Virus record (IMG/VR): IMGVR_UViG_3300012964_000061
Coordinates: 1-22,466 of that record
Length of the DNA: 22,466 nucleotides
From: a virus
Strand: one strand, 5' to 3'
Shown here one piece after another: positions 1,275 to 22,466 of this stretch (position 1 is its first letter; each line of letters opens with the position of its first letter). Below the pieces are notes generated by a model. It did no database searches and was not told the origin of the DNA. It saw only the letters and a program-made list of their open reading frames with translations. Made by a program: the position numbers and the translations under genes.

Positions 1275-3212
1275 ATGGCTGTAGTTCCTGATTCCAACTT
1301 GCTTATTACTCCTACTGCTGCCCAAGGACTGGTTAAGTATGAGAAAACTGTCTACGAGCATATGGCTAAGCACAGCAACTTGCGGGCTGTAATGGAAGGT
1401 ATTGATCGTGAGTATGCAAGGGAGAATAATAGCAGTGATGCTCAACGGCGAGCTAAGCAAGCCAATGCAAACGGAGATAAGAGCAAGATTCAGGAGCTAA
1501 TCGTTCCAGTTATCATGCCGCAAGTGGAAAGTTCACTAGCTTATCTTGCTGGAGTGTTCCTGCAAGGTTATCCTATCTTCAGTAATGTAGCTCCTCCGGA
1601 ATACGCAGATGCAGCACTGCAAATGGATGCTATTATAGCAGATCAATCAACTCGCGGGGGTTGGGTTACGCAGTTTCTTCTATACTTCCTGGATGGGTTG
1701 AAGTATAACTTGCAAGCTATGGAGTGTTCCTGGGAGCTGGAGAAAACTTGGGGTGTAACAACTAGCAAGCTTAGTGCTACGCATGAGGCTCAAGCACAAG
1801 AACAAATCTGGGCCGGAAATAGGCTCCGTCGCTGGGACTTGTATAATACTCTGTGGGATACACGAGTTAATCCCACAGAAGTTCACACCAAGGGGGAATT
1901 TGCAGCTACTACTACCCTTATGAGCCGGGTAGCTCTTAATCAATTCCTACATAGCCTGCCAGATGCTATCCGTATTAAGCGGAATTACAAGCCCGCAATG
2001 GAAAGTTCCCTCGGGGAGGACAGATACTTCCATATTCCGGAGATCAATCCGGATGCTCTTATCTCTCCTACTGTTAAAGGTGAATTCAACTGGGCCGCAT
2101 GGGCTACTAATAGCCATGATGCCGCGAAACGCATCAATTACCAGAATGCTTATGAAGTTACCAAGCTGTATGCACGAGTAGTTCCTAGTGACTTCGGTAT
2201 TAATGTTCCTTTTTCTGGAACTCCACAGATTTGGAAGCTGTACTATGTGAATCACAAGTTCCTAGTAGCTGCGGAACGGCAAACTAATGCGCATAATTAT
2301 CTTCCTGTTATCTTCGGCCAGCCAAAAGAAGATGGCTTAGGTTGCCAAACCAAGAGTATGGCTAAGAACTTGGAGCCTATCCAGAATTTAGCTAGTGCTT
2401 TTGCTATCGCTAAGATTTCCAGCACTCGCAGAGCTATTAGTGATCGCATGCTCTACGATCCAAGGGCTGTAAGTTCAGATGCTATCAACAATCCAAGCGC
2501 TACAGCTAAAATTCCAGTTCGCCCGAATGCTTATAACAAGTCTCTTTCTGAGTTAGTACACCAGATTCCATACCGTGATGATGCAGCAGTAACTCTTATG
2601 CAAGATCTCAGCATGGTAGTGCGTATGGGGGATGATGTTACTGGCTCCAATCCTTCACGCCGCGGCCAGTTCGTGAAGGGCAATAAAACACGGAAAGAAT
2701 TCGAGGATACGCAAGGTAACAGCACTGGTCGGGATCAATTGCAAGCAGTAGCTATTGAACACCAAACCATGACTCCTATTAAGGAGATGCTGAAGATCAA
2801 TATCTTGCAATATCAGCCGCCAAAGTCCTTGCTGGCTCCAGATAATTCACAAGTAGTGAAGGTAAATCCTCTGACTCTCCGCGAAGCTATCATGACTTTC
2901 AAAGTATCAGATGGCCTGCTTCCTGCTGATAAGATCATGAGTACGGAGGACTTCGGAGCAGCACTTAATACTCTCAGCACAGTTCCACAACTTGGACAAG
3001 CTTATCATATAGCCCCGTTATTTACTTATATCATGAAGTCCAGAGGAGCTGATTTGCGGCCCTTCGAGAAAACTAAGGAGGAACTCCTGTATGACCAGCA
3101 ACTTCAGAGCTGGCAGCAAGTAGCTTTGGAAGCTATCAAAGCTGGCAAGGAACCCCCACCGCAACCACAGCCTCCACAACAGCAACAAGCACCAAACCCA
3201 ACAGGAGCATAA
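1275..3212 (+). CDS. Portal (head-tail connector) protein
   Basis: A 645-residue protein directly after the terminase and before the scaffold and coat genes, which is the standard portal position. The portal forms the dodecameric ring at the unique capsid vertex through which DNA enters and leaves. The start ATG at 1275 is preceded by GGAG at 1265-1268. The sequence is mixed alpha/beta with no signal peptide. The middle carries the long helical, charged stretch expected of portals. The last 20 or so residues are low-complexity Pro/Gln (PPPQPQPPQQQQAP), probably a flexible tail. Size is typical of podoviral portals (about 500-750 residues). I recognise the general portal character rather than a specific subfamily. 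Function is inferred from size, order and composition. Confidence 0.85.
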   Translation: MAVVPDSNLLITPTAAQGLVKYEKTVYEHMAKHSNLRAVMEGIDREYARENNSSDAQRRAKQANANGDKSKIQELIVPVIMPQVESSLAYLAGVFLQGYPIFSNVAPPEYADAALQMDAIIADQSTRGGWVTQFLLYFLDGLKYNLQAMECSWELEKTWGVTTSKLSATHEAQAQEQIWAGNRLRRWDLYNTLWDTRVNPTEVHTKGEFAATTTLMSRVALNQFLHSLPDAIRIKRNYKPAMESSLGEDRYFHIPEINPDALISPTVKGEFNWAAWATNSHDAAKRINYQNAYEVTKLYARVVPSDFGINVPFSGTPQIWKLYYVNHKFLVAAERQTNAHNYLPVIFGQPKEDGLGCQTKSMAKNLEPIQNLASAFAIAKISSTRRAISDRMLYDPRAVSSDAINNPSATAKIPVRPNAYNKSLSELVHQIPYRDDAAVTLMQDLSMVVRMGDDVTGSNPSRRGQFVKGNKTRKEFEDTQGNSTGRDQLQAVAIEHQTMTPIKEMLKINILQYQPPKSLLAPDNSQVVKVNPLTLREAIMTFKVSDGLLPADKIMSTEDFGAALNTLSTVPQLGQAYHIAPLFTYIMKSRGADLRPFEKTKEELLYDQQLQSWQQVALEAIKAGKEPPPQPQPPQQQQAPNPTGA

Positions 3213-3215
3213 ACT

Positions 3216-3575
3216 ATGAACTCAGTGAACAGTCCAGAACTTGATATTCGTAAGGAAGCTATTTTAAAGGATGTGTTCTCCAGTATTCAGAGATATGAAC
3301 TCTCAGATCAGGAAACACAGCAAGGGATGCAGCTAACTCCTATCCAGAAGATGATAATTCTGAACCTGCGGGCCGCCAGTATCGAGCAGAAGCTTGGGGG
3401 TGTTATTGATCCTAATGAGATCAACAAGTATATCCAGGAGGATGCGTACCTTCGTGGTTGTATTGATACGTATACAACTATGCTATTCAATGATTTCCAG
3501 TTCCAACAGGCCGCAGCAGAACTTGCAGCTTCTGGTACTGATAGTAATGAAGCAGTAATAGTCCCGCTGCCATAG
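3216..3575 (+). CDS. Small structural-cluster protein, function unknown
   Basis: A 119-residue, mainly helical, acidic protein with no recognised family. The start ATG at 3216 is three bases after the portal stop and has AGGAG at 3203-3207 inside the portal's last codons, so it is translationally coupled to the portal. Its place between portal and scaffold suggests a head-assembly or minor capsid role, but nothing in the sequence proves this. It ends with a single TAG followed by CAA TTC. The frame then stays open for 19 codons and runs in phase into the scaffold start at 3633. The scaffold has its own ribosome-binding site, so I treat them as two genes. Confidence 0.78.
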   Translation: MNSVNSPELDIRKEAILKDVFSSIQRYELSDQETQQGMQLTPIQKMIILNLRAASIEQKLGGVIDPNEINKYIQEDAYLRGCIDTYTTMLFNDFQFQQAAAELAASGTDSNEAVIVPLP

Positions 3576-3632: not shown

Positions 3633-4385
3633 ATGAATGTAGGCGCACTATTGAATTTCTTCAAGCCAGGCCAGCAACAGACAGTAGCACCGGCTGTTCC
3701 AGGCAACCCGCAACTTAGCACTCTGCCCGCAGCGCAGCCAGCAGCCCCTGCTAATCAAGCACAGCCAGCAGCTGCTGATCCTAACGCACAAGCAACTCCA
3801 GCTGCACCTGCATCCCCTATGGATATTTTCGGAAAGTTATGGGATACTAAACCCGACGCTGAAAACACGGGAATCCCGAAATTCTCTACTGATCCTGCGA
3901 AGTTGCAAGAAGCTGCTAGCAAGATCAATTTTGCACAAGCTGTAGATCCAGCTTTGATGCAGAAGGCAATGGGAGGGGATGCCACAGCTTTCCAGCAAGT
4001 ATTGAATTCAGTTGCGCAATCAGTATTTACGCAGGCAGCCACAGTAACAACCAAGCTGCTGGACACTGGACTTGATGCTACTTCAGGACACTTGGCACAA
4101 CAACTGCCAGAACATATCAGGAAGCATAGTACAACTAACGAACTTGTGGCTGAAAACCCAATGTTCGCACATCCCGCAGTTAAGCCTATCTTGGACAGCT
4201 TGCAGTCACAACTTGCACTTACATACCCAACAGCAACAAGTTCGGAATTGGCAGCGAAAGCTAAAGAGTACCTTACAGCACTCATGGCCCTCAATGGTAC
4301 TAAGCCGGTCGCAGAAGCTAAGCCAACTACGAACGGTACGCAAACGGATGACTGGAGCACCTACGGGCAACCTCCGGCTCAGTAA
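3633..4385 (+). CDS. Capsid scaffold-like protein
   Basis: A 250-residue protein immediately before the major capsid gene, the usual scaffold position; scaffolds template procapsid assembly and leave before or during DNA packaging. AGGAG at 3621-3625 sits 7 bases before the ATG. Residues about 12-65 are a low-complexity Ala/Pro/Gln linker. The segment MDIFGKLWDT (about 63-72) follows, then helical, Ala/Gln/Leu-rich sequence to about residue 210, and a disordered Thr/Pro tail. A helical protein flanked by disordered ends just upstream of the coat gene is typical of scaffolds. There is no catalytic motif, so a fused protease is not suggested. The assignment rests on position and composition rather than a conserved signature. 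Confidence 0.75.
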   Translation: MNVGALLNFFKPGQQQTVAPAVPGNPQLSTLPAAQPAAPANQAQPAAADPNAQATPAAPASPMDIFGKLWDTKPDAENTGIPKFSTDPAKLQEAASKINFAQAVDPALMQKAMGGDATAFQQVLNSVAQSVFTQAATVTTKLLDTGLDATSGHLAQQLPEHIRKHSTTNELVAENPMFAHPAVKPILDSLQSQLALTYPTATSSELAAKAKEYLTALMALNGTKPVAEAKPTTNGTQTDDWSTYGQPPAQ

Positions 4386-5772: not shown

Positions 5773-6015
5773 ATGGCAGAAACTAAAGAAGCAGTCTTTC
5801 AAAGTGTTCATCCAGGTAGCACGTATGTGTTCACGGATGGTATCGCAGGGTTCTTCAATGATGGCCCAGAGAAGAATCAGCTGAAGGTTACCAGCGAAAG
5901 CTATATCGAGCAACTTCGGAAGCTTCCAGCAGCCGCGAATATCGTGGAAGTTAAGAAGGAGAAGCTTGTAGTAGCTCCCCCTCCTGCGGCTCCACCTGCT
6001 CCCCCAGCTAAATAA
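5773..6015 (+). CDS. Small protein with Ala/Pro-rich tail, unknown function
   Basis: An 80-residue protein, first gene after the capsid terminator, with AGGAG at 5759-5763. Residues 1-60 look folded (VFQSVHPGSTYVFTDGIAGFF near the start, short beta strands). The final 20 residues are Lys then Ala/Pro-rich (APPPAAPPAPPAK), probably a flexible extension. Small proteins straight after the coat gene in this type of phage are sometimes head-decoration or head-completion proteins, which is possible here, but there is no motif to confirm it. The next gene starts 12 bases after its stop. Confidence 0.75.
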   Translation: MAETKEAVFQSVHPGSTYVFTDGIAGFFNDGPEKNQLKVTSESYIEQLRKLPAAANIVEVKKEKLVVAPPPAAPPAPPAK

Positions 6016-6292: not shown

Positions 6293-6901
6293 ATGACTAC
6301 CTGGGCGACTTTACTAGCTGATCTGTACACACTTACTAATAAGCCGAATCTGGCTGCTGAGAGTGCTATAGCTCTGCGTAAAGCTACTATGGATATGCAT
6401 TGCGTAGCCTTCTTTGCAAGGGATTTGGTAGAGGGAGTAACTACCCTCGCAACTGCGGGATATAATCATGCTCTTGTGTTAGGAACGGAGTATCCAAGAC
6501 TCCGGGCTTTTAATTATTTACGAAAGTATGATTCTGTATCGCTGGAAGCAGGAGCTTTGCTAACTTATGTGGAACCTCAATATATTTTCGATGAGTACAA
6601 TGTCGAAAAAAATGACGTGTTTTACCTTGGTGGAACGAATGTTAATGTTCGTAGTAGCACTTCTATTGGCGCACTTAAGTATGGATATTTTGCGTATCCT
6701 GTGGTAACTCCAACAGGAAGTTATAGCTCCTGGATAGCGGATGCTCATGAGGAGATTATTCTGGAAGCGGCCGCGATGCGGATATTTAGCATCATTGGTG
6801 ATTTGGAACAAGCTGGCGCAATGCGGAACGCAGTAGGGGATTATCGTAGTGGAAATGTGAAGTTCCTACTGGACAATTATACCGTGCCAGCTGTTTCGTA
6901 G
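6293..6901 (+). CDS. Head-tail adaptor candidate (T7 gp11-like position)
   Basis: A 202-residue protein in the place and size range of podoviral tail tubular protein A / head-tail adaptors (T7 gp11 is just under 200 residues), which dock under the portal and carry the nozzle. AAGGA at 6279-6283 lies upstream of the ATG. Content is helical at the N terminus (TTWATLLADLYTLTNKPNL, residues 2-20), a beta-rich middle (about 90-135), and a C-terminal helix (EEIILEAAAMRIFSIIGD, about 153-170). This is the alpha-beta-alpha order expected for such adaptors. The terminal segment VKFLLDNYTVPA could be the docking tail. I recognise the arrangement rather than a diagnostic motif. It ends in a single TAG, and reading through would run antiphase over the next gene. 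Confidence 0.62.
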   Translation: MTTWATLLADLYTLTNKPNLAAESAIALRKATMDMHCVAFFARDLVEGVTTLATAGYNHALVLGTEYPRLRAFNYLRKYDSVSLEAGALLTYVEPQYIFDEYNVEKNDVFYLGGTNVNVRSSTSIGALKYGYFAYPVVTPTGSYSSWIADAHEEIILEAAAMRIFSIIGDLEQAGAMRNAVGDYRSGNVKFLLDNYTVPAVS

Positions 6902-11833: not shown

Positions 11834-12109
11834 ATGGAAGGCATGAGCACAGAAGAACTTGCGGAGCATATAGCTAGGAACCTAGCAGAGAAGTTTGCAG
11901 TACCGGCTCCAGGTTGTGCTCAATGCTATCCTCCGGAACATCGGGAATTTGTAGCAGCTTTTATTCAAGAGCTGGCGGATAAGAGGGCTAGGAGGAAAGA
12001 AATAGCAGATAAAGTAGCTGGTTCTGTAATAGCTGCAAGCTCCTTAGCTTTCCTTGGATTCCTAGGGGGTCTAGTTTTGGATTGGTTTTTCAAACGTGGA
12101 GGACACTAA
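11834..12109 (+). CDS. Small membrane protein, putative holin/lysis accessory
   Basis: A 91-residue protein. GGAGG at 11824-11828 is five bases from ATG 11834, so I choose this start; ATG 11822 upstream lacks spacing and ATG 11843 has no site. Residues 1-60 are soluble and charged, with CAQC (28-31) followed by PPEHREFV (33-40) and the basic stretch KRARRKE. Residues about 62-84 form one hydrophobic segment (VIAASSLAFLGFLGGLVLDWFF), ending KRGGH. A single C-terminal membrane anchor next to lysis genes fits a holin-like or antiholin-like protein, or a membrane-associated lysis regulator. I recall similar PPEH-containing small membrane proteins from phages of proteobacteria but cannot name a family with certainty. 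Confidence 0.7.
   Translation: MEGMSTEELAEHIARNLAEKFAVPAPGCAQCYPPEHREFVAAFIQELADKRARRKEIADKVAGSVIAASSLAFLGFLGGLVLDWFFKRGGH
12098..12102 (+). promoter_or_regulatory. Ribosome-binding site fixing the start at 12111
   Basis: GGAGG at 12098-12102, eight bases before ATG 12111. The longer frame from GTG 12096 includes this site and is therefore rejected. Confidence 0.8.
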
Positions 12110-12110
12110 C

Positions 12111-12572
12111 ATGGAACTGTTACTACAGAGTTTTCTATTCACTCCAAGAACCACCATTAGCAAGCTGTTTGTAGATGGAGTTTTTGAATGCTACATACTG
12201 GAAGATTGTACTAGGGAAATTCCCGGCGTGCCAGCTAAGGAGTGGAAGATTCCTAAGCAGACCGCGATTCCTTCTGGCAGATATCAAGTAGTGCTTAGTC
12301 GTAGTACAAGATTCAAGAAGCTACTTCCAGAACTGCTGAATGTTCCAGGCTATCTTGGAGTGCGCATTCACGGAGGAGTAACCAGCGAGGATACTGAGGG
12401 CTGCTTGCTTACAGGAACTTCTTACGAAGGGGAGAAGCTGCTGGAGTCTCAGAAGGCTAAGCTTGCCCTGATGACGAAGATTGCAAATGCTGCTTTCGAG
12501 GGAGAGCAAGTCTGGATTACAATTGAACGCAGGCAATATTACGATACCAACAGCGGAACATTAGGAGCTTAA
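12111..12572 (+). CDS. DUF5675 family protein, lysis-region enzyme candidate
   Basis: A 153-residue protein matching the DUF5675 family by its motifs: ILEDCTREIPG (29-39), TAIPSGRYQV (51-60), NVPGYLGVRIHGG (77-89) and DTEGCLL (94-100). The IHGG...TEGC pair resembles the catalytic HG...SHGC arrangement of YkuD-type L,D-transpeptidases, with H87 and C98 in comparable places, but the His of SHGC is Glu here. Family members occur in phage genomes often near lysis genes; their activity is not established to my knowledge. Here it lies between a small membrane protein and a three-helix holin, and no other cell-wall enzyme is visible nearby, so it may act on peptidoglycan. No signal peptide; export would need the holin. 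Confidence 0.85.
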   Translation: MELLLQSFLFTPRTTISKLFVDGVFECYILEDCTREIPGVPAKEWKIPKQTAIPSGRYQVVLSRSTRFKKLLPELLNVPGYLGVRIHGGVTSEDTEGCLLTGTSYEGEKLLESQKAKLALMTKIANAAFEGEQVWITIERRQYYDTNSGTLGA

Positions 12573-12573
12573 T

Positions 12574-13074
12574 ATGAGCAGCTTTTTTGATAAGATACTT
12601 GGGGCAGCCACTGGTGGCCTTGCAAGTGAAGTTAAGGACTTAGTTACAACCTACTGGCCTCCGGATGTAAGTCCTGAGAAGAAAGCTCAATTCGAGCTGG
12701 AAATGGACAAGCTGGAATTTGAACGGGAGAAAGCAGTAGACGCTGCTACACAGGCCGCTGAGGATAGTCTTAACAAGCGACTTGAAATGTATGAAGGTAC
12801 CGCCAAGGACTTGCTGGCAATTCCTGTTTTCGGGGCCCTAATGCTATTCATTCGCGGTAGCCAACGCACTGTGTGGGGAATGGCTGCTATCTATTTCGAT
12901 TATCTATGGTTCGTTACTAGCCTCAAGATGACTGACCAGCAGCAGACAGCTCTTATTATCATCAACTGCTTAGTACTTAGTTTCCTGTTCGGGGAACGAG
13001 CACTGAAGAACTTGATGCCGCTTATAATACAGCTGCTGGGGGTGAAAGCTAGCAGTCTTAAAGACGGCAAATAA
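12574..13074 (+). CDS. Three-helix holin-like membrane protein (GTA_holin_3TM type)
   Basis: A 166-residue protein. Residues about 35-75 form a charged helix (KKAQFELEMDKLEFEREKAV), then three hydrophobic segments: about 79-94 (DLLAIPVFGALMLFI), 99-117 (TVWGMAAIYFDYLWFVTSL) and 124-140 (QTALIIINCLVLSFLFG). This soluble helix followed by three membrane spans with a RxxxWG-type turn matches the holin family first defined in gene transfer agents. Expected role: permeabilise the inner membrane late in infection. AGGAG at 12563-12567 precedes the ATG. It begins two bases after the DUF5675 gene stop, so lysis genes are co-translated. Confidence 0.8.
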   Translation: MSSFFDKILGAATGGLASEVKDLVTTYWPPDVSPEKKAQFELEMDKLEFEREKAVDAATQAAEDSLNKRLEMYEGTAKDLLAIPVFGALMLFIRGSQRTVWGMAAIYFDYLWFVTSLKMTDQQQTALIIINCLVLSFLFGERALKNLMPLIIQLLGVKASSLKDGK

Positions 13075-14379: not shown

Positions 14380-16142
14380 TGCCAGTTCCACAGTTGAATA
14401 CATCTGCTCAGGATCAGCAAGCTCCAGTTCTTGCAGTGGCTGACCCAAAAGCTGCGGATATGCAAGTAACACTGGATGCTATAGCTGCCGGAAAACCGGC
14501 TCCGGCCACCTTCTTAGGATTCCCAGAAGGAGTTCCTGTGCCAGGAGCCAAAACTACTAATCCAGAAACTACAGCTTACCTAGCAAGCGCGGCCACTCAC
14601 GGGCAGCAACTAGACGCTGTTATCAACACTATCATTCCTGATACACTGAAAAAGGTACAGGAAGCTAGCACAGCAATTGAAGCTAAGACCGCGGAAAGTG
14701 CTTTATTACTGCATCAAGTCGGCCTGCTACAGGCGGAGAGAATAGGGAATGAAACGCTGAGAGTTGCAGCTATGCGCGAGGCTATTAAACCCGATGTAGT
14801 ACTAAATCCTTTGTATGCGGAGTTGGCTAAAACTGCTACCAGGCTGAGTGATGTAGATAAGGCTCTAGCACTGGCAGCTAACCCAAACACTCCTAAACCT
14901 CAAGGATTTGTTGCAGGCTTTATGTCAGTAGCAGTTCCTAGGCACCTTAACAAGGAACGTGATGTTCTTTTGCGCCAAATTCAGGATTTACAAACTAGCA
15001 CTCATAATATTCAAGCGGCTATGCAAGACTCTGTAGCTACAGCCACTGCTATGAATACTATGCAGACAAAGACGGAACTGCAAGGTATTAGCCTAGCTAA
15101 ACTGGACATTGCAGTCGCAGAGCTTAAGAAGCAAGGCATTGATACTGCTAAGTTGGAGTTGGAACTGAATACGGTAGCTCTCAATGCTTCTGGCAAGGCT
15201 GCGGAATTGGCCCAGAAAGCAGTTACTGCGCCTTTGGAAATTAAAGGTCTGCAACAGCGCTTACAAGCTGGTGAGTTGGAACTCGCTAGTGCCAAACTTA
15301 ATGTTGCTGAGCGGGAAGCTTGGATTGCTCAGACTTCCAAGGCAATGCAGATTCTAGGTTATACTGGGGATATTACTCCTGAGAAGTTCAAGCTGCTTCC
15401 TAATGACTTGCAGGATACAATTTCCAAGATTACTCTTAGCGGAACTCTTGGGGATAGTGTAGCTTCTGTTGTGAAGAATATGGCACAAGCGAATGTAGCG
15501 AACATGGATTCAGTAGTTGTGCATACTGTGCGCAGCTTCCTAGCTCCGCAGTATAGTGCACAACTAGCTAAGCCTAGTGTAGCTGCGCTAGCTTCTAAGC
15601 CTAAGCAACAGGAGGCGGAAATTGCAAGGCTCATGACCGCCGATATCCAAGAACTATACAAGCGGCCAATTAGTTGGAATGATACCAGCGATCCTAGGCA
15701 GCGGGCTGCTATTCCTGTGCTTCTGAAGGAGCCTGGAATGCTGAATAATCCTATTGCTAAAGGCTTGGCTACGCGCTTTGGAGCTACTCCAGCAGAAACT
15801 GTTGTTAAGGATGAACAGATAGTGGATGCTGTAGCATCTATGGTTTCCGGAAAGGAACTCAGTGCAGGCGAAGCCAGTGCAGCAGCAGCTTCTTTTTATA
15901 AGAATGCAATAGCTTTCAATAATCGTATGAAGAAACCTGGAATGATTAAGCTACCAGAGCAAGTGGATTACAGGATAAGTCTTCCGGCAGCTACTACATC
16001 CTTTGGTGGCCTTGTATACAGTGCTGGAACCTTGGATTTAACAAGTCCTGCTGCCTGGACTAATCTGCTAGCTTTGCGGAATGCTAGAGCCGCTGTTGGT
16101 ATGCCTACTTCAATCCCTGAACTTCTAACTGGGAGTAAATAA
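14379..16142 (+). CDS. Internal virion / DNA-ejection protein candidate, helical
   Basis: A 587-residue, predominantly helical protein, second of three successive genes that overlap as TAATG. It contains long heptad-like runs, for example around residues 60-125 (TLKKVQEASTAIEAKTAESA) and 195-320 (ALNASGKAAELAQKAVTAPL and LQQRLQAGELELASAKLNVA), consistent with extended coiled coil or helical tube. No catalytic motif is visible. The position and helical make-up fit T7 gp15-like ejection proteins that line the trans-periplasmic conduit. GGAGG at 14368-14372 precedes the ATG. The Ala content is high. Assignment by order and fold pattern only. Confidence 0.65.
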   Translation: MPVPQLNTSAQDQQAPVLAVADPKAADMQVTLDAIAAGKPAPATFLGFPEGVPVPGAKTTNPETTAYLASAATHGQQLDAVINTIIPDTLKKVQEASTAIEAKTAESALLLHQVGLLQAERIGNETLRVAAMREAIKPDVVLNPLYAELAKTATRLSDVDKALALAANPNTPKPQGFVAGFMSVAVPRHLNKERDVLLRQIQDLQTSTHNIQAAMQDSVATATAMNTMQTKTELQGISLAKLDIAVAELKKQGIDTAKLELELNTVALNASGKAAELAQKAVTAPLEIKGLQQRLQAGELELASAKLNVAEREAWIAQTSKAMQILGYTGDITPEKFKLLPNDLQDTISKITLSGTLGDSVASVVKNMAQANVANMDSVVVHTVRSFLAPQYSAQLAKPSVAALASKPKQQEAEIARLMTADIQELYKRPISWNDTSDPRQRAAIPVLLKEPGMLNNPIAKGLATRFGATPAETVVKDEQIVDAVASMVSGKELSAGEASAAAASFYKNAIAFNNRMKKPGMIKLPEQVDYRISLPAATTSFGGLVYSAGTLDLTSPAAWTNLLALRNARAAVGMPTSIPELLTGSK

Positions 16143-19100
16143 TGACAAGTACTTACAATGATCCGTCCCCAATCTTCCTTACAGCTGACGCAGCTAATAT
16201 CAGCGGAAGTGGGCAGTCCATGCTTGGTAGTGCTACTGACTGGCTCACCAAGGGAGTTCTAGCTGCTGGAGTTTCCGGCCTGGATAGTATCTGGAATAGC
16301 ACTGTAGTTCCAGTTAATAACTTCCTTGGCGGTGATATGAGCAAGGTTCGGGCTGATTACCAGCTTCAGGACTGGGGTTTTGAGGATACTGCTGCGTACT
16401 ATAAACAGCATCAAGCAGGTGCTGATCTTGGAGGTTTTATTCTTGCTAGTACTATCCCTGGAACTATCGGCTTGAAAGCTCTGAAAGCTATGCAAGGTGG
16501 AGCACTGGGAACTACTGCTGCTAGGAGCTTAGGACTGGCGAAGAACGCACAAGCAGGATTCTTGGAAGCCGCACTTGCTGATATCAATCTGGGTGTTGAT
16601 GCAGCATCTTCCATTGTGAAGGCGAACAAGTATAAGGCTATGGTTGCCGGATTTGGTGAGCAAGCTCTCCAAGCTGCGGCTATGGAAGTTGCTATTGGCA
16701 CTACCATGCATAGCAGTCCTATCTTTGAAGAAATGGATGTTGGGGACATGGTTATCAATGGCCTGTGGGGAGTAGCCCTTGGTGGAGCTATCGGCGGTAC
16801 TTTTGCAGGACTTGGAATTAATCGGGATATCAAGAAAGGAATTGTTGGCTTCAATGAGAAAGCTCGTCCGTATGAAAGTATTCTTGATCCTGGGAAGCAA
16901 GCTGTTGGCCTGAGTGGTGGGAAAGTAGTTACAATTACTGGAGGTGACAGGGCCAGTGCTATGCTGGATCATTTGGATGAAATGCCACTTCCTGCCGCGA
17001 ATCAGGCTCTTAGCAACAAGGCGCTGGATAAATATAATAATACTTGGATGCAAGTTACCAAGCTAGCTATTGATATGACTCCTGCGGAAGGGGAACTGGC
17101 GAAGGATGCTGCTCTTGCTAATGAATTCACAGGCTTGCTGGTAAGGATGAAATCCTCCCTGCCAGAGGAACAATTCGTGGCCCTCCAGAAGAAAGATTAC
17201 ATGGACTTGATGCTAACAGGTGCTGCCAAGCTGGAACGTGCAGGTCTGGATTCTCATGTTCAGCCACTAGAAGTTAGCTATCTCCATCCTGAGGGCTTGA
17301 AGATGGGCAAGCAAGCTTGGGTTACTCTGAAGGAAGTTGGTGACTTGAAGCTTAATGTGGATAATCTTACCAAAGTCCATATCCTGAAGCCAGCGGAGGA
17401 AATTAAGATTGCTAGGTACAGCAGTATGGATGCCGAATTTGGAGCTGTAACTCAATTCGATAATCAGACACAAGCTTGGAATGCAGGTTTTGACCTGTAC
17501 TTGGATCATACTGGAAAGCTTATTATCAATCCCGCTTCCTCGGCACTCCAGAAAGTTATTAGTCCTAAGGCTAATGTATCTTTGTATGTTAATCTGGCTA
17601 ATGGAGAAGTTACAAATGCTGCATATGCTACTGCTTTTGATGCGTTTGCAAGAACTGCTGAAGATGTTAAAGTTGAAGGTATGGGAGCACAAGTGCTACG
17701 TCTTGGTAGCAAGCGGTTTGATTTTACTCTGGCTACTGGCTTTACCCCTGGTGAGTTGGATACTGTTACAGCTAATGCGCGGCACTTGTGGGCAGATAAG
17801 CTGCCCCTGAAGAAGCTGCTAGAGCCAGGAGTTGTTATCAATAGCAATGATACGCCTGTACTGGAGCGGTTGCTGAAGGAGAAACTTGCGGCTAAGGAAG
17901 CAGGAACTGCTGGGGAAGCTATTCTGGAGAAGCTTGATAGTATCAGCATCCAACACTTCGACGGAGAACTCAGTGATCTCAAGCATATCCGTGATCTGGA
18001 AGGCTTCATTGAAACTGCTAAGTCTCAGCATATCAAGCAGCTAGCGGAAGCTGGTACTGTAGTGGATGATATTGCTGTGCGGCTGAATGCCCCGAAGGAA
18101 GCAGTTGTCAGCGGAGAAGGCTCCCTGCTCCAGCACAGCGATATGCTATACAAGCCAAGTACTGCGAAAGTAACCTATGAAGTTACCAATCCTGTGCTCA
18201 ATCCTATTGATGGCATGATTATGCGCGGGCACGCAGCTGTAGCGGAGAAGATCAGACTTGCTGAGGACTATTCCAAAACAGTATTCGCTAACTTTGCCGG
18301 AGAGCTATTTGAGCAATTCCCAGATATCAGTGTTCTGGAAAGTAGGCTTAAAGCTAATGAACTACCTACTGGAAGTACTATGCTTGGTTCCAGCAATGCT
18401 AACTACGGGGAAGTTAAGAATGCCTATCAGGCTATTGGAGCTTCCTTTCAACAGCTTCGCAACAAGAGGCTGGATAGCACTACCAGCAAGTTCTTTGCTA
18501 GTAAGAATGAGATTCTCCAAGATAAGGAAGCTGCCGCAGAACTTGGTATCTTCATGAATGAACTTCGGAACACTGGGGAGAAGTATGGCTTCCTAGCTAC
18601 GGAGAATATGGATGCTACAGTTCTTACGAATCTTCTGAATAGTGCTGGAGTTAAGCTTCCACAAGGAGGCAAGCAACTTATCCTGCACCGCGAGCTTATC
18701 AATGCTATCGAGAATGATATGGAAGCTCTAGCTAAGGGCCGGAATACTAGCTTCACTAAGGACTTCATAGCAGGTGCGAAAACTGCGGAACTCAAGGCTA
18801 GCTATGAAGTATCCCCGAAAGTTGGGAGCTTCCTTCGTGTGCAGACTGTTATCAATGATGAGCGTGCCGGGCATTTCCAAGCTATGTACAATGCCCAAGG
18901 ATTGGAAAGCCGTCATATCCCAGGTACTATTTACATCCCTCCAATCAATACAGAACGTTACAGCTTCTTCGCATTCGTGCGGGAACGTTCCGGCGGTATG
19001 GGTGCGAACTCTCATGTTACTGTGGTTACAGCTAAGAATGCTGAAACACTGCAAGCACAGCTGGCTAAGATTGATCGTAGCATTTATGATGTAATCACCA

Positions 19101-21286
19101 AGGATGGCAGTAAGCTGTATCATGAAGCTCTTGGGGATTACAAGTATGCTATGAGTGTGAATGAGAGTGGTGTGGATAGTACCCTCCGTAAGCGGGGTGT
19201 ACTTAGTGATTTCTTCCCTGCTACCAGTCCTGCTGCTGTACTGGAGGATTGGGCCGACTGGCACATCAAGCAAGAGACACGGCTTACTAGGAACTATGTT
19301 GAACTTCGCTATGCCCAGCAATTCGCGGAACTCAAAGCTATTGGTCAGGACTTCACGGATATTGCTACTTCTCGCTTTGCTGCCACAGGTGCGAAGTATG
19401 AAAGCACCGTTGATAATCCATACATGGATCACATCAAGTTGGCTCTTGGCATTGATAAGAAGAATGAGCAACATTATAGGCTATGGCAGAATGCTAATGA
19501 GCTGGTGGAATCTGCTGGCAATACAGCTTTCAACCTTGCTAGGACTGCTTTCGGGGATGCTAAGAAAGGGCTTATCAGTTGGGAACGTGCCAATGAGCTA
19601 GCGGAAAGTATGGGAATTAAGCCTCCATTCCGTGGTGCCGCAGAGGATATGATTCAAGCCCAGATACTAGCGAATACTCAGTATGACCGGAATGTAATGA
19701 GCCGCTTCGTTAATACCGCGAATTCCGTATTGGCAGCAACTGTGCTTCGGTTGGATTTCATCAACCCTCTAATCAACATTATTAGTACTCCAATCCTTGC
19801 AGGTACGGAACTCAGCAGCATTCGCCAACAACTTAAGAATAATCCGGAAGCTCTTGGGAAGCTAGCGGAAATGATGAGCCAGAAGGTTCCAGGTCAGGAA
19901 CTACATATCCCAAGTACAATGAAGCTGTTGCAGACTGCAATGACAAATTACTTTGGAGATAGCGGGGAGGTTCTTATTGCCAGGTACAAGCAGGCTGGCT
20001 ATATCAAGAACATTGCTCAACTGCATCATGAAATGTTGGATGATATTAGTGATGTGTGGATTAAAGGCCAGAAGCTGGAAATTGCGGAAGCCAAGATTAA
20101 AGCTGCGGTTGATAAGGGAGCTAAGCTTACAGGGAATAACTTTGCTGAGGAATTCACACGCTTTGTTAGTGCGGATATTATGCGGCAGATTACGGAAGCA
20201 GCTGGATTGAGTGTTCGGGAGCAGCATGCCTATATTAGTACCTTTGTAAATCGGGTGCAGGGGAACTACATAGCTAATCAACGTCCTCAGCTCTTTCAGG
20301 GAGTACTAGGGAAAGCTATTGGCTTGTTCCAGACATATCAGTTCAACCTATTGCAGCAAGTATTCCGGCATGTGGAAGCTGGGGATAAGAAAACACTGGC
20401 CATATTCGGGGCCCTTCAGACTAGCATCTTCGGCCTCCAAGGACTTCCAGTGTTCAATGCTATCAATACGCACCTGATAGGGAATGCTGCTGGCAATCCT
20501 AACCATGCTGATCTTTATACTGGAACTCAGCAAGCTCTTGGTAAGGAGTGGGGTAACTGGCTCATGTACGGAACAGCTTCTGCTTTCCCGCTTACTCCTA
20601 ACTGGAGTCTGTATACTCGTGGAGATTTGAATCCAAGAACAGCTACTATACTACCACTGAATCCTGCGGACTGGCCAATAGTAGCAGGAAGTGCTAAGTT
20701 CTTTGGGAATCTTGCAAATACCTTCAGCAAGATCAGTGCTGGTGGAGATGTATGGACTTCGCTAGCACAAGGTATTGAACATAATGGCATTAACAGGCCA
20801 ATGGCAGGACTTGGGCAGTGGCTAGCCAGTGCTAAGACTGGAGCAGTTACAGCTACTACTAGCAAAGGTTCCCTAATAAGTGCCAATGCTGATATCCTGA
20901 GCATGGCTACAGCTAGCCGCCTACTAGGAGCTAAGCCTCTGGATGAAGCTGTAGCTATGGATGCTATGTACCGCAGCAACGCTTATCGAGTTAAGGACTT
21001 GCTACGGATTGGCCAGCTTGGGGAAGCTATCAAGACTACTCTAATTGGAGGAGCAGAACCTAGCCAGCAGCAACTGGAAGATTTCGCGGTTAGTTACGCA
21101 GCCAGCGGCGGCAGGATTACGGAGTTCCACAGCTATCTCATGGGACTTACTAAGGGTGCGAATACAGCTACGGTTAATAGCTTGTTGCAGAAGATGAATA
21201 GCCCGCTAGGTAGGAATATGCAGGTTATTATGGGAGGGGAGGAACTGCCGGATTATACGAATATGCAGAATGTTCCTGGGCAGTAG
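16142..21286 (+). CDS. Giant internal virion / ejection protein (1714 residues)
   Basis: The largest gene in the window, about 5.1 kb, last of the late unit. Its TAATG overlaps the preceding gene and GGGAG at 16131-16135 precedes the start. Rank and size match the largest ejection protein of podoviruses (T7 gp16 role: conduit and, in T7, peptidoglycan digestion), but it is larger than T7 gp16 and I find no lytic-transglycosylase signature. Residues 93-130 and 203-226 (MVINGLWGVALGGAIGGTFA) are glycine-zipper-like hydrophobic segments that could insert into the inner membrane. The rest is largely helical and charged. Near the C terminus a Trp/Pro-rich region (LNPADWPIVAGSAKFFGNL, about 1505-1523) and the RLLGAKPLDEAVAMDAMYRS block precede a helical end. 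Alternatives such as a tape measure are less likely because no tail-tube genes are present. It ends in tandem TAG TAG. Confidence 0.7.
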   Translation: MTSTYNDPSPIFLTADAANISGSGQSMLGSATDWLTKGVLAAGVSGLDSIWNSTVVPVNNFLGGDMSKVRADYQLQDWGFEDTAAYYKQHQAGADLGGFILASTIPGTIGLKALKAMQGGALGTTAARSLGLAKNAQAGFLEAALADINLGVDAASSIVKANKYKAMVAGFGEQALQAAAMEVAIGTTMHSSPIFEEMDVGDMVINGLWGVALGGAIGGTFAGLGINRDIKKGIVGFNEKARPYESILDPGKQAVGLSGGKVVTITGGDRASAMLDHLDEMPLPAANQALSNKALDKYNNTWMQVTKLAIDMTPAEGELAKDAALANEFTGLLVRMKSSLPEEQFVALQKKDYMDLMLTGAAKLERAGLDSHVQPLEVSYLHPEGLKMGKQAWVTLKEVGDLKLNVDNLTKVHILKPAEEIKIARYSSMDAEFGAVTQFDNQTQAWNAGFDLYLDHTGKLIINPASSALQKVISPKANVSLYVNLANGEVTNAAYATAFDAFARTAEDVKVEGMGAQVLRLGSKRFDFTLATGFTPGELDTVTANARHLWADKLPLKKLLEPGVVINSNDTPVLERLLKEKLAAKEAGTAGEAILEKLDSISIQHFDGELSDLKHIRDLEGFIETAKSQHIKQLAEAGTVVDDIAVRLNAPKEAVVSGEGSLLQHSDMLYKPSTAKVTYEVTNPVLNPIDGMIMRGHAAVAEKIRLAEDYSKTVFANFAGELFEQFPDISVLESRLKANELPTGSTMLGSSNANYGEVKNAYQAIGASFQQLRNKRLDSTTSKFFASKNEILQDKEAAAELGIFMNELRNTGEKYGFLATENMDATVLTNLLNSAGVKLPQGGKQLILHRELINAIENDMEALAKGRNTSFTKDFIAGAKTAELKASYEVSPKVGSFLRVQTVINDERAGHFQAMYNAQGLESRHIPGTIYIPPINTERYSFFAFVRERSGGMGANSHVTVVTAKNAETLQAQLAKIDRSIYDVITKDGSKLYHEALGDYKYAMSVNESGVDSTLRKRGVLSDFFPATSPAAVLEDWADWHIKQETRLTRNYVELRYAQQFAELKAIGQDFTDIATSRFAATGAKYESTVDNPYMDHIKLALGIDKKNEQHYRLWQNANELVESAGNTAFNLARTAFGDAKKGLISWERANELAESMGIKPPFRGAAEDMIQAQILANTQYDRNVMSRFVNTANSVLAATVLRLDFINPLINIISTPILAGTELSSIRQQLKNNPEALGKLAEMMSQKVPGQELHIPSTMKLLQTAMTNYFGDSGEVLIARYKQAGYIKNIAQLHHEMLDDISDVWIKGQKLEIAEAKIKAAVDKGAKLTGNNFAEEFTRFVSADIMRQITEAAGLSVREQHAYISTFVNRVQGNYIANQRPQLFQGVLGKAIGLFQTYQFNLLQQVFRHVEAGDKKTLAIFGALQTSIFGLQGLPVFNAINTHLIGNAAGNPNHADLYTGTQQALGKEWGNWLMYGTASAFPLTPNWSLYTRGDLNPRTATILPLNPADWPIVAGSAKFFGNLANTFSKISAGGDVWTSLAQGIEHNGINRPMAGLGQWLASAKTGAVTATTSKGSLISANADILSMATASRLLGAKPLDEAVAMDAMYRSNAYRVKDLLRIGQLGEAIKTTLIGGAEPSQQQLEDFAVSYAASGGRITEFHSYLMGLTKGANTATVNSLLQKMNSPLGRNMQVIMGGEELPDYTNMQNVPGQ

Positions 21287-21347: not shown

Positions 21348-21593
21348 TTACGGATACATAGGAGTATCGTCTCCGGAAATATCTTCATCGGCTAGCAGCA
21401 CAGTAAACACTTCCAACTCCGTCCAAGTATCTGGAATATCCGGCATCCACTCAAAGTTATTAATATCTGAATTCCACCTTATAGCATAAGCTTCTTGGCT
21501 AGCAGTATGATAGTTAGCTTGTTCAATACCTTCCACTAGGAAAGGAACGTCCCCTGTACAGGGGCAGATAAGATAAGTATTTTCTGGTAACAT
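21348..21593 (-). CDS. Small acidic protein, unknown function
   Basis: An 81-residue acidic protein, last gene of the leftward unit. AGGAG (minus strand; + positions 21601-21605) is seven bases before the ATG. It contains CPCTG near the N terminus (residues 10-14), a Trp-rich centre (IRWNSDINNFEWMPDIPDTW, about 38-57) and a beta strand (LEVFTVLLAD) before an acidic tail. The two Cys in CPC could bind a metal or form a disulphide, but no second pair is present. No family recognised. The upstream gene's TAG is in the same frame 19 codons earlier, with no other stop between. Probably an early or middle small regulator, but this is only context. Confidence 0.72.
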   Translation of the reverse strand: MLPENTYLICPCTGDVPFLVEGIEQANYHTASQEAYAIRWNSDINNFEWMPDIPDTWTELEVFTVLLADEDISGDDTPMYP

Positions 21594-21647: not shown

Positions 21648-22262
21648 CTAAGCTTTCACAAACGGATTCCCTGCTAACTGGTTCCTATCATCCGTACCAA
21701 CCCCAAAACGCTGATACTCCAGCAGGAACATTAGGCAACAGATAGCATGTGCGATGTGCGGAATACCACTCTCCGGATCAGTATCTTCCCCACGTTGCCA
21801 AGCTTCCAAATGCCGGCGGGCAGCATCGTACATCCGAGTCCACTCCATACCTTTCTGCCAATTATGCGCAGCATATTTCTTAGCCCCGAATTCCAGCACC
21901 CGAACTACTTCTTCAGTAGCAAAAGAGGGAAGTAGGGAGTAGCGAAGTTTGCCAGTATCAGCTTTAGTAGCCTGCCTATTAGCACCATGAGCTTGCATAA
22001 GTCTTCCAGGTGAAGATACCTGCTCAAATCCTACTACTAGTTCCCTCCACCTTCCAAGTATGAAGTCATATATCCTGCCATTAGTACACCGGATAGCCGC
22101 TATCTTAGGTACCCCAAGTTGGGATGTCAGCACCTCAGCGGAAAGCTGTAGTGGGTAAACAACATAGTGCTTGTCTGGCCCTGTAACAACATTCCACAAG
22201 CCTCCTTCCACAGAAGTGTATGCGTCCACTAATAAGTGCTCCGTATTAAGTTGCTTATCCAT
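21648..22262 (-). CDS. dATP/dGTP diphosphohydrolase-family protein (DUF5664) with extra N-terminal domain
   Basis: A 204-residue protein. Residues about 100-185 match the dATP/dGTP diphosphohydrolase (DUF5664) domain, a MazG-related fold: KADTGKLRYSLLPS (100-113), EVVRVLEFGAKKYAAHNW (118-135), then DAARRHLEAWQRGEDTD (146-162), ESGIPHIAHAICCLMFLLEY. Likely metal ligands are E124, H151, E153, E159 or D160, and H169/H172. Known members hydrolyse dATP or dGTP; the cyanophage S-2L member works in 2-aminoadenine genome synthesis. The N-terminal 95 residues (YTSVEGGLWNVVTGPDKHYV, then YPLQLSAEVLTSQLG) are an unrecognised domain. GGGAGGA on the minus strand (+ 22271-22277) is eight bases before ATG 22262, so the frame's earlier ATG at 22295, inside the upstream gene, is not used. 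It ends with a single TAG. Confidence 0.85.
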   Translation of the reverse strand: MDKQLNTEHLLVDAYTSVEGGLWNVVTGPDKHYVVYPLQLSAEVLTSQLGVPKIAAIRCTNGRIYDFILGRWRELVVGFEQVSSPGRLMQAHGANRQATKADTGKLRYSLLPSFATEEVVRVLEFGAKKYAAHNWQKGMEWTRMYDAARRHLEAWQRGEDTDPESGIPHIAHAICCLMFLLEYQRFGVGTDDRNQLAGNPFVKA

Positions 22263-22270
22263 TTGCTTTA

Positions 22271-22277
22271 TCCTCCC
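22271..22277 (-). promoter_or_regulatory. Ribosome-binding site fixing the start at 22262
   Basis: Read on the minus strand, GGGAGGA lies eight bases before ATG 22262. It is within the last codons of the preceding (mazG-like) frame, a typical coupled arrangement, and rules out the longer start at 22295. Confidence 0.8.
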
Positions 22278-22356
22278 TTGCAATAGCTGCTGCATTGGAA
22301 TACTTCAGTCCTTTGTAGCGAGCACTTAGCTTCTCCATGTTCTGCTGCAAAGTTTC

Positions 22357-22359
22357 CTA
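22357..22359 (-). other. In-frame amber codon within mazG-like reading frame
   Basis: On the minus strand the codons around it are ATT ACT AGA TAG GAA ACT TTG (Ile Thr Arg stop Glu Thr Leu). Family-typical residues on both sides show that the frame is preserved, so this is a substitution, not a frameshift. Confidence 0.85.
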
Positions 22360-22466
22360 TCTAGTAATTCCTAGCCCTTGCCGCAAGCCTTCCATGTAGA
22401 ACTCCAAGTCACCAAGTTCCTCAATAACATTGGCACGATCCAGAAGCTTCTGGTAGATACAATGTA

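Follow-up and report, generated by a model that had tools for sequence, protein, structure and literature searches.

Phage MazG can act on dNTPs, and one cyanophage enzyme has been described as preferring dGTP and dCTP (PMC6850273). MazG proteins resembling the one described here are known from Pseudomonas phages pPA-3099-2aT.3 and PaMx25 (PHROG 229/PF03819), with 65-68% identity over 65-66 residues; EELGD and a C-terminal KLxxRY...A..RxDK pattern were common to both sides of the comparison. Unlike these relatives, the present gene carries a TAG (amber) codon, placed at a variable, mostly acidic or glutamine position, and its 5' part is missing. As here, conserved genes contain TAG in frame in phages in which this codon has been reassigned (genetic code 15; Crassvirales and others; PMC11210395, PMC10607447). 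In metagenomic contigs, nonsense pseudogenes and single-base errors likewise present a single in-frame stop with no frameshift, with family sequence on both sides and a stop that occurs in no relative, and in these respects no difference from the present locus was seen. Nothing points to a new way of reading genes. With high confidence, the locus is interpreted as a phage gene for a MazG-like nucleoside-triphosphate pyrophosphatase that is ordinary except for a nonsense difference of one base.

The window analysed was the whole of IMG/VR record IMGVR_UViG_3300012964_000061 (22,466 bases). The left part of the record encodes, on the plus strand, terminase, portal, major head and other virion genes, the last of which specifies a protein of 1714 residues, while the right part carries on the minus strand, from the contig end inwards, the MazG-like gene, a gene with a dATP/dGTP diphosphohydrolase domain and an 81-residue gene. 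The record stops within the MazG-like gene, the 5' part of which is therefore absent; full-length relatives have about 118 residues, so that roughly the first 50 residues are lacking. What remains is the C-terminal 69 codons (22255-22464, minus strand), identified by translation, tblastn and PHROG match. Read from 22464 to 22255 with the TAG taken as a residue, the frame gives 69 residues, composed of HCIYQKLLDRANVIEELGDLEFYMEGLRQGLGITR, the amber position and ETLQQNMEKLSARYKGLKYSNAAAIAREDKANG, and closes with the natural TAA. There was no frameshift, and the sole internal stop was the TAG at 22359-22357 (minus strand; fragment position 36), 107 bases from the contig end. An independent search of the record in six frames likewise returned one TAG within the MazG-like match, so that the coordinates of frame and codon in the preliminary description were correct. 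The segment before the stop (22360-22464, minus strand) comprises 35 codons and the segment after it (22258-22356, minus strand) 33 codons. The natural TAA (22255-22257, minus strand) sits in the opening codons of the gene that follows, whose ATG is at 22262-22260, giving an overlap of 8 bases (ATGGATAA); the earlier statement that an intact TAA end overlaps the next ATG was right in substance.

Membership in the MazG-like family was supported by tblastn of the frame, which matched 41 phage records (best E 8e-22, identity up to 69%), and by a match to PHROG 229, 'MazG-like pyrophosphatase' (E 5.6e-20); relatives were encoded in 229 IMG/VR stretches. Profiles were built separately from the parts of the relatives that precede and follow the stop, and the window scored 86.6 bits before the stop (median of the relatives 85.6) and 61.1 bits after it (median 64.8). 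Both scores are typical of members, which indicates that the family sequence on either side is real and not a chance resemblance. Frame translation, family matches and half-profile scores thus agree with the preliminary description in placing MazG-like sequence on both sides of the TAG. The Pfam MazG family (PF03819, positions 25-71) gave E 7.7e-4 and 15.2 bits, which falls short of the 22-bit cut-off, as half of the gene lies beyond the contig end; the full-length relatives L001 and L004 exceeded the cut-off. The second metal-binding motif (ExxD, here EELGD, with invariant positions E15, E16, G18 and D19) was present before the stop, and the first acidic motif (GExGE in the relatives) maps beyond the contig end. 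The frame departs from the uninterrupted frame of the family at the TAG. By its family match, the present MazG subtype is a putative pyrophosphatase.

The likely effect of a real stop on the protein was read from the structure predicted for a full-length relative (mean pLDDT 92.1), in which helices in the second half span residues 61-81, 86-100 and 108-115. The stop aligns to residue 87, where helix 86-100 has just begun. A protein truncated there would be predicted to retain EELGD but to lack the two last helices and the conserved residues N, K, R-Y and R-x-D-K, and the truncated enzyme, if the stop is real, would probably be unstable or inactive. A sequence search of the full-length relative against solved structures gave no MazG match, and a fold search with its model returned weak matches (best E 0.04), among them MazG, PRA-PH and DCTPP1-type enzymes.

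The stop was not shared by any relative. In 80 IMG/VR relatives (66 distinct proteins), the amber column held E in 57, Q in 13, D in 5, K in 2 and A, S and P in one each; none of these 80 loci had a stop there, and all continued through the conserved C-terminal region. In a scan of a genome collection, the ten nearest loci from cellular genomes all read through the site as well. The alignment of homologues proposed in the preliminary description thus revealed none, among the 80 viral and ten nearest genome loci, that ends at this position. A degenerate DNA pattern of the family segment followed by TAG had no match in IMG/VR; the same pattern without the TAG matched 54 of the 80 loci in hand, which indicates that the amber scan had power. 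The exact DNA around the site had no sister-phage copy in IMG/VR, and a search of phage records turned up no relative of this phage at the DNA level. Among the relatives examined, the stop is private to the present record.

The sequence beyond the stop has barely drifted. All nine post-stop residues that are invariant in the 80 relatives were retained, and no residue in either half fell outside the range of the homologues. For comparison, random substitutions were simulated in the 90-base post-stop stretch and scored on whether residues stayed within the homologue range, which they did in 44% of trials with one substitution, 3.8% with four and 0.9% with six. At least four random substitutions leave less than 4% of simulations within the residues of the homologues, which supports the earlier supposition from the sequence that any decay must be recent. 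The near absence of drift implies that the stop is not real, that it is very young or that the segment is still translated.

TAG is an ordinary terminator in this phage. The 24 other genes of the record end in TAA (17), TAG (5) or TGA (2), and no in-frame TAG was found within their 7,249 codons. Under the standard code (table 11), coding density was 97.5%, with a median gene length of 609 bases. The TAGs of gene 6293-6901 and of the dATP/dGTP diphosphohydrolase-domain gene lie close to the ends of their homologues. Two TAG-ended genes, 3216-3575 and 21648-22262, run in frame with no further stop into 3633-4385 and 21348-21593, respectively; the TAA-ended genes 1275-3212 and 5773-6015 likewise continue in frame into the next gene, and the continuation after TAG is therefore probably due to chance. 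No tRNA gene, and hence none with the anticodon CUA that the preliminary description had proposed to look for, was found in the 22 kb record, which is a fragment. Recoding of TAG throughout the phage was rejected on the stop usage, the coding density and the lack of in-frame TAGs elsewhere.

Reassignment of TAG across the whole genome (genetic code 15 or similar, known from some crAss-like phages) would explain why a conserved gene contains a TAG in frame, and among the five genes ending in TAG two (3216-3575 and the dATP/dGTP gene) do continue in frame, but so do two ending in TAA. When table 11 is applied to code-15 phages, the median coding capacity is 67-69% (PMC11210395), against the 97.5% found here across 22 kb, and one code-15 genome had TAGs in 41 ORFs together with three suppressor tRNA genes (PMC10607447), whereas the present TAG is a single case in 25 genes and five genes end in TAG, two of them close to the natural ends of homologues. 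The present record, a fragment, has no suppressor tRNA, but about half of code-15 phages also lack one (PMC11210395). For the 22 kb segment code 15 is refuted, and genome-wide reassignment was considered exceedingly improbable. Programmed or suppressed amber decoding, in which TAG is partly read by a phage or host suppressor tRNA to yield a short and a full-length MazG, agrees with the preservation of family sequence beyond the stop, as expected if the segment is still translated, and the suppressor tRNA may sit elsewhere in the phage, of which the record is a fragment, or in a suppressor host. Against it, the amber is absent from all relatives examined (80 viral loci, ten nearest genome loci and zero pattern matches), so that the conservation of the stop that would mark programmed readthrough was not seen; the record has no tRNA gene; and the predicted RNA structure around the stop was unremarkable (z -1.13). 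The cut also coincides with the beginning of a helix and not with a domain boundary, which makes a useful short form unlikely. Partial decoding of the amber was accordingly rated very unlikely. The least probable reading, with next to no weight, is a naturally short MazG followed by a separate small reading frame: the TTG at 22350 and the ATG at 22338 are in frame downstream of the stop (the only such starts there), but neither is preceded by a convincing ribosome-binding site, no relative examined terminates at the position, and the leftover piece would be about 27-31 residues long and without catalytic motifs.

Two readings carry most of the weight. The base would be either a sequencing or assembly error at the contig end or a null mutation that arose very recently in a dispensable gene. 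A slight preference, at about even chances, was given to an error at a thinly supported contig end with the phage gene itself intact, a judgement made from the contig sequence by the position and rarity of the stop. The amber lies close to the end of a metagenomic record, where an artefact is more likely; apart from the stop the frame is perfect and keeps every family-invariant residue on both sides; and the stop is absent from all relatives examined. Against an error, the contig showed no further suspect position, and no other gene in it looks broken, which indicates that the assembly is not generally poor. A real and recent nonsense mutation, by which the phage or an assembled strain variant has just lost a non-essential MazG-like enzyme, was held to be somewhat short of even chances. 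It would fit with phage MazG genes being auxiliary and horizontally exchanged (PMC6850273, PMC2297514), and nine IMG/VR records whose major head protein is related to that of this phage (44-56% identity) had no match to this MazG, a weak indication as these records are mostly fragments. The complete conservation after the stop speaks against this reading to the extent that the mutation must be very young. If the mutation is real, translation would end before the last two helices and the enzyme would probably be lost, while the next gene would keep its own ribosome-binding site. A point against attributing the stop to error or recent mutation is that preserved post-stop sequence would also be expected under translation by readthrough. 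Of the three readings offered in the preliminary description, recent nonsense mutation and sequencing error stand, and the programmed or suppressed amber finds no support: TAG is a normal terminator here, the amber is absent from the relatives examined, the record encodes no tRNA-CUA, and neither a structure for readthrough nor a convincing restart site was found. Where a lone stop sits close to the end of a metagenomic contig, the base should be regarded as unverified before a pseudogene, recoding or readthrough is invoked. If the amber existed in the phage and were suppressed, it would offer a minor instance of regulated nucleotide metabolism in phages, which nothing here favours.

The neighbouring gene with the dATP/dGTP diphosphohydrolase N-terminal domain (PF18909, E 8.1e-37; 21648-22262, minus strand) is intact, with its TAG where homologues end. 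It has a ribosome-binding-like GGGAGG upstream of its ATG (22262-22260) and so need not rely on translation of MazG. The first approximately 90 residues of its product lie outside the PF18909 match, and for most of its 80 best IMG/VR relatives the alignment begins only at about residue 90. None of the 80 MazG loci had a match to this gene near the MazG subtype, and among 80 dATP/dGTP loci there was one MazG match, a weak one (L163, 3706-3831; 38% identity over 42 residues, E 0.001); the dATP/dGTP neighbour does not travel with the present MazG subtype. On the plus strand, the gene for the 1714-residue protein (16142-21286) terminates in tandem TAG TAG, and its product had no Pfam match, while its C-terminal third matched PHROG 16165 (unknown function). 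Two adjacent small plus-strand genes (12096-12572 and 12574-13074; 158 and 166 residues, respectively), located between a fibre-like region and the large virion proteins, suggest a putative lysis-type cassette.
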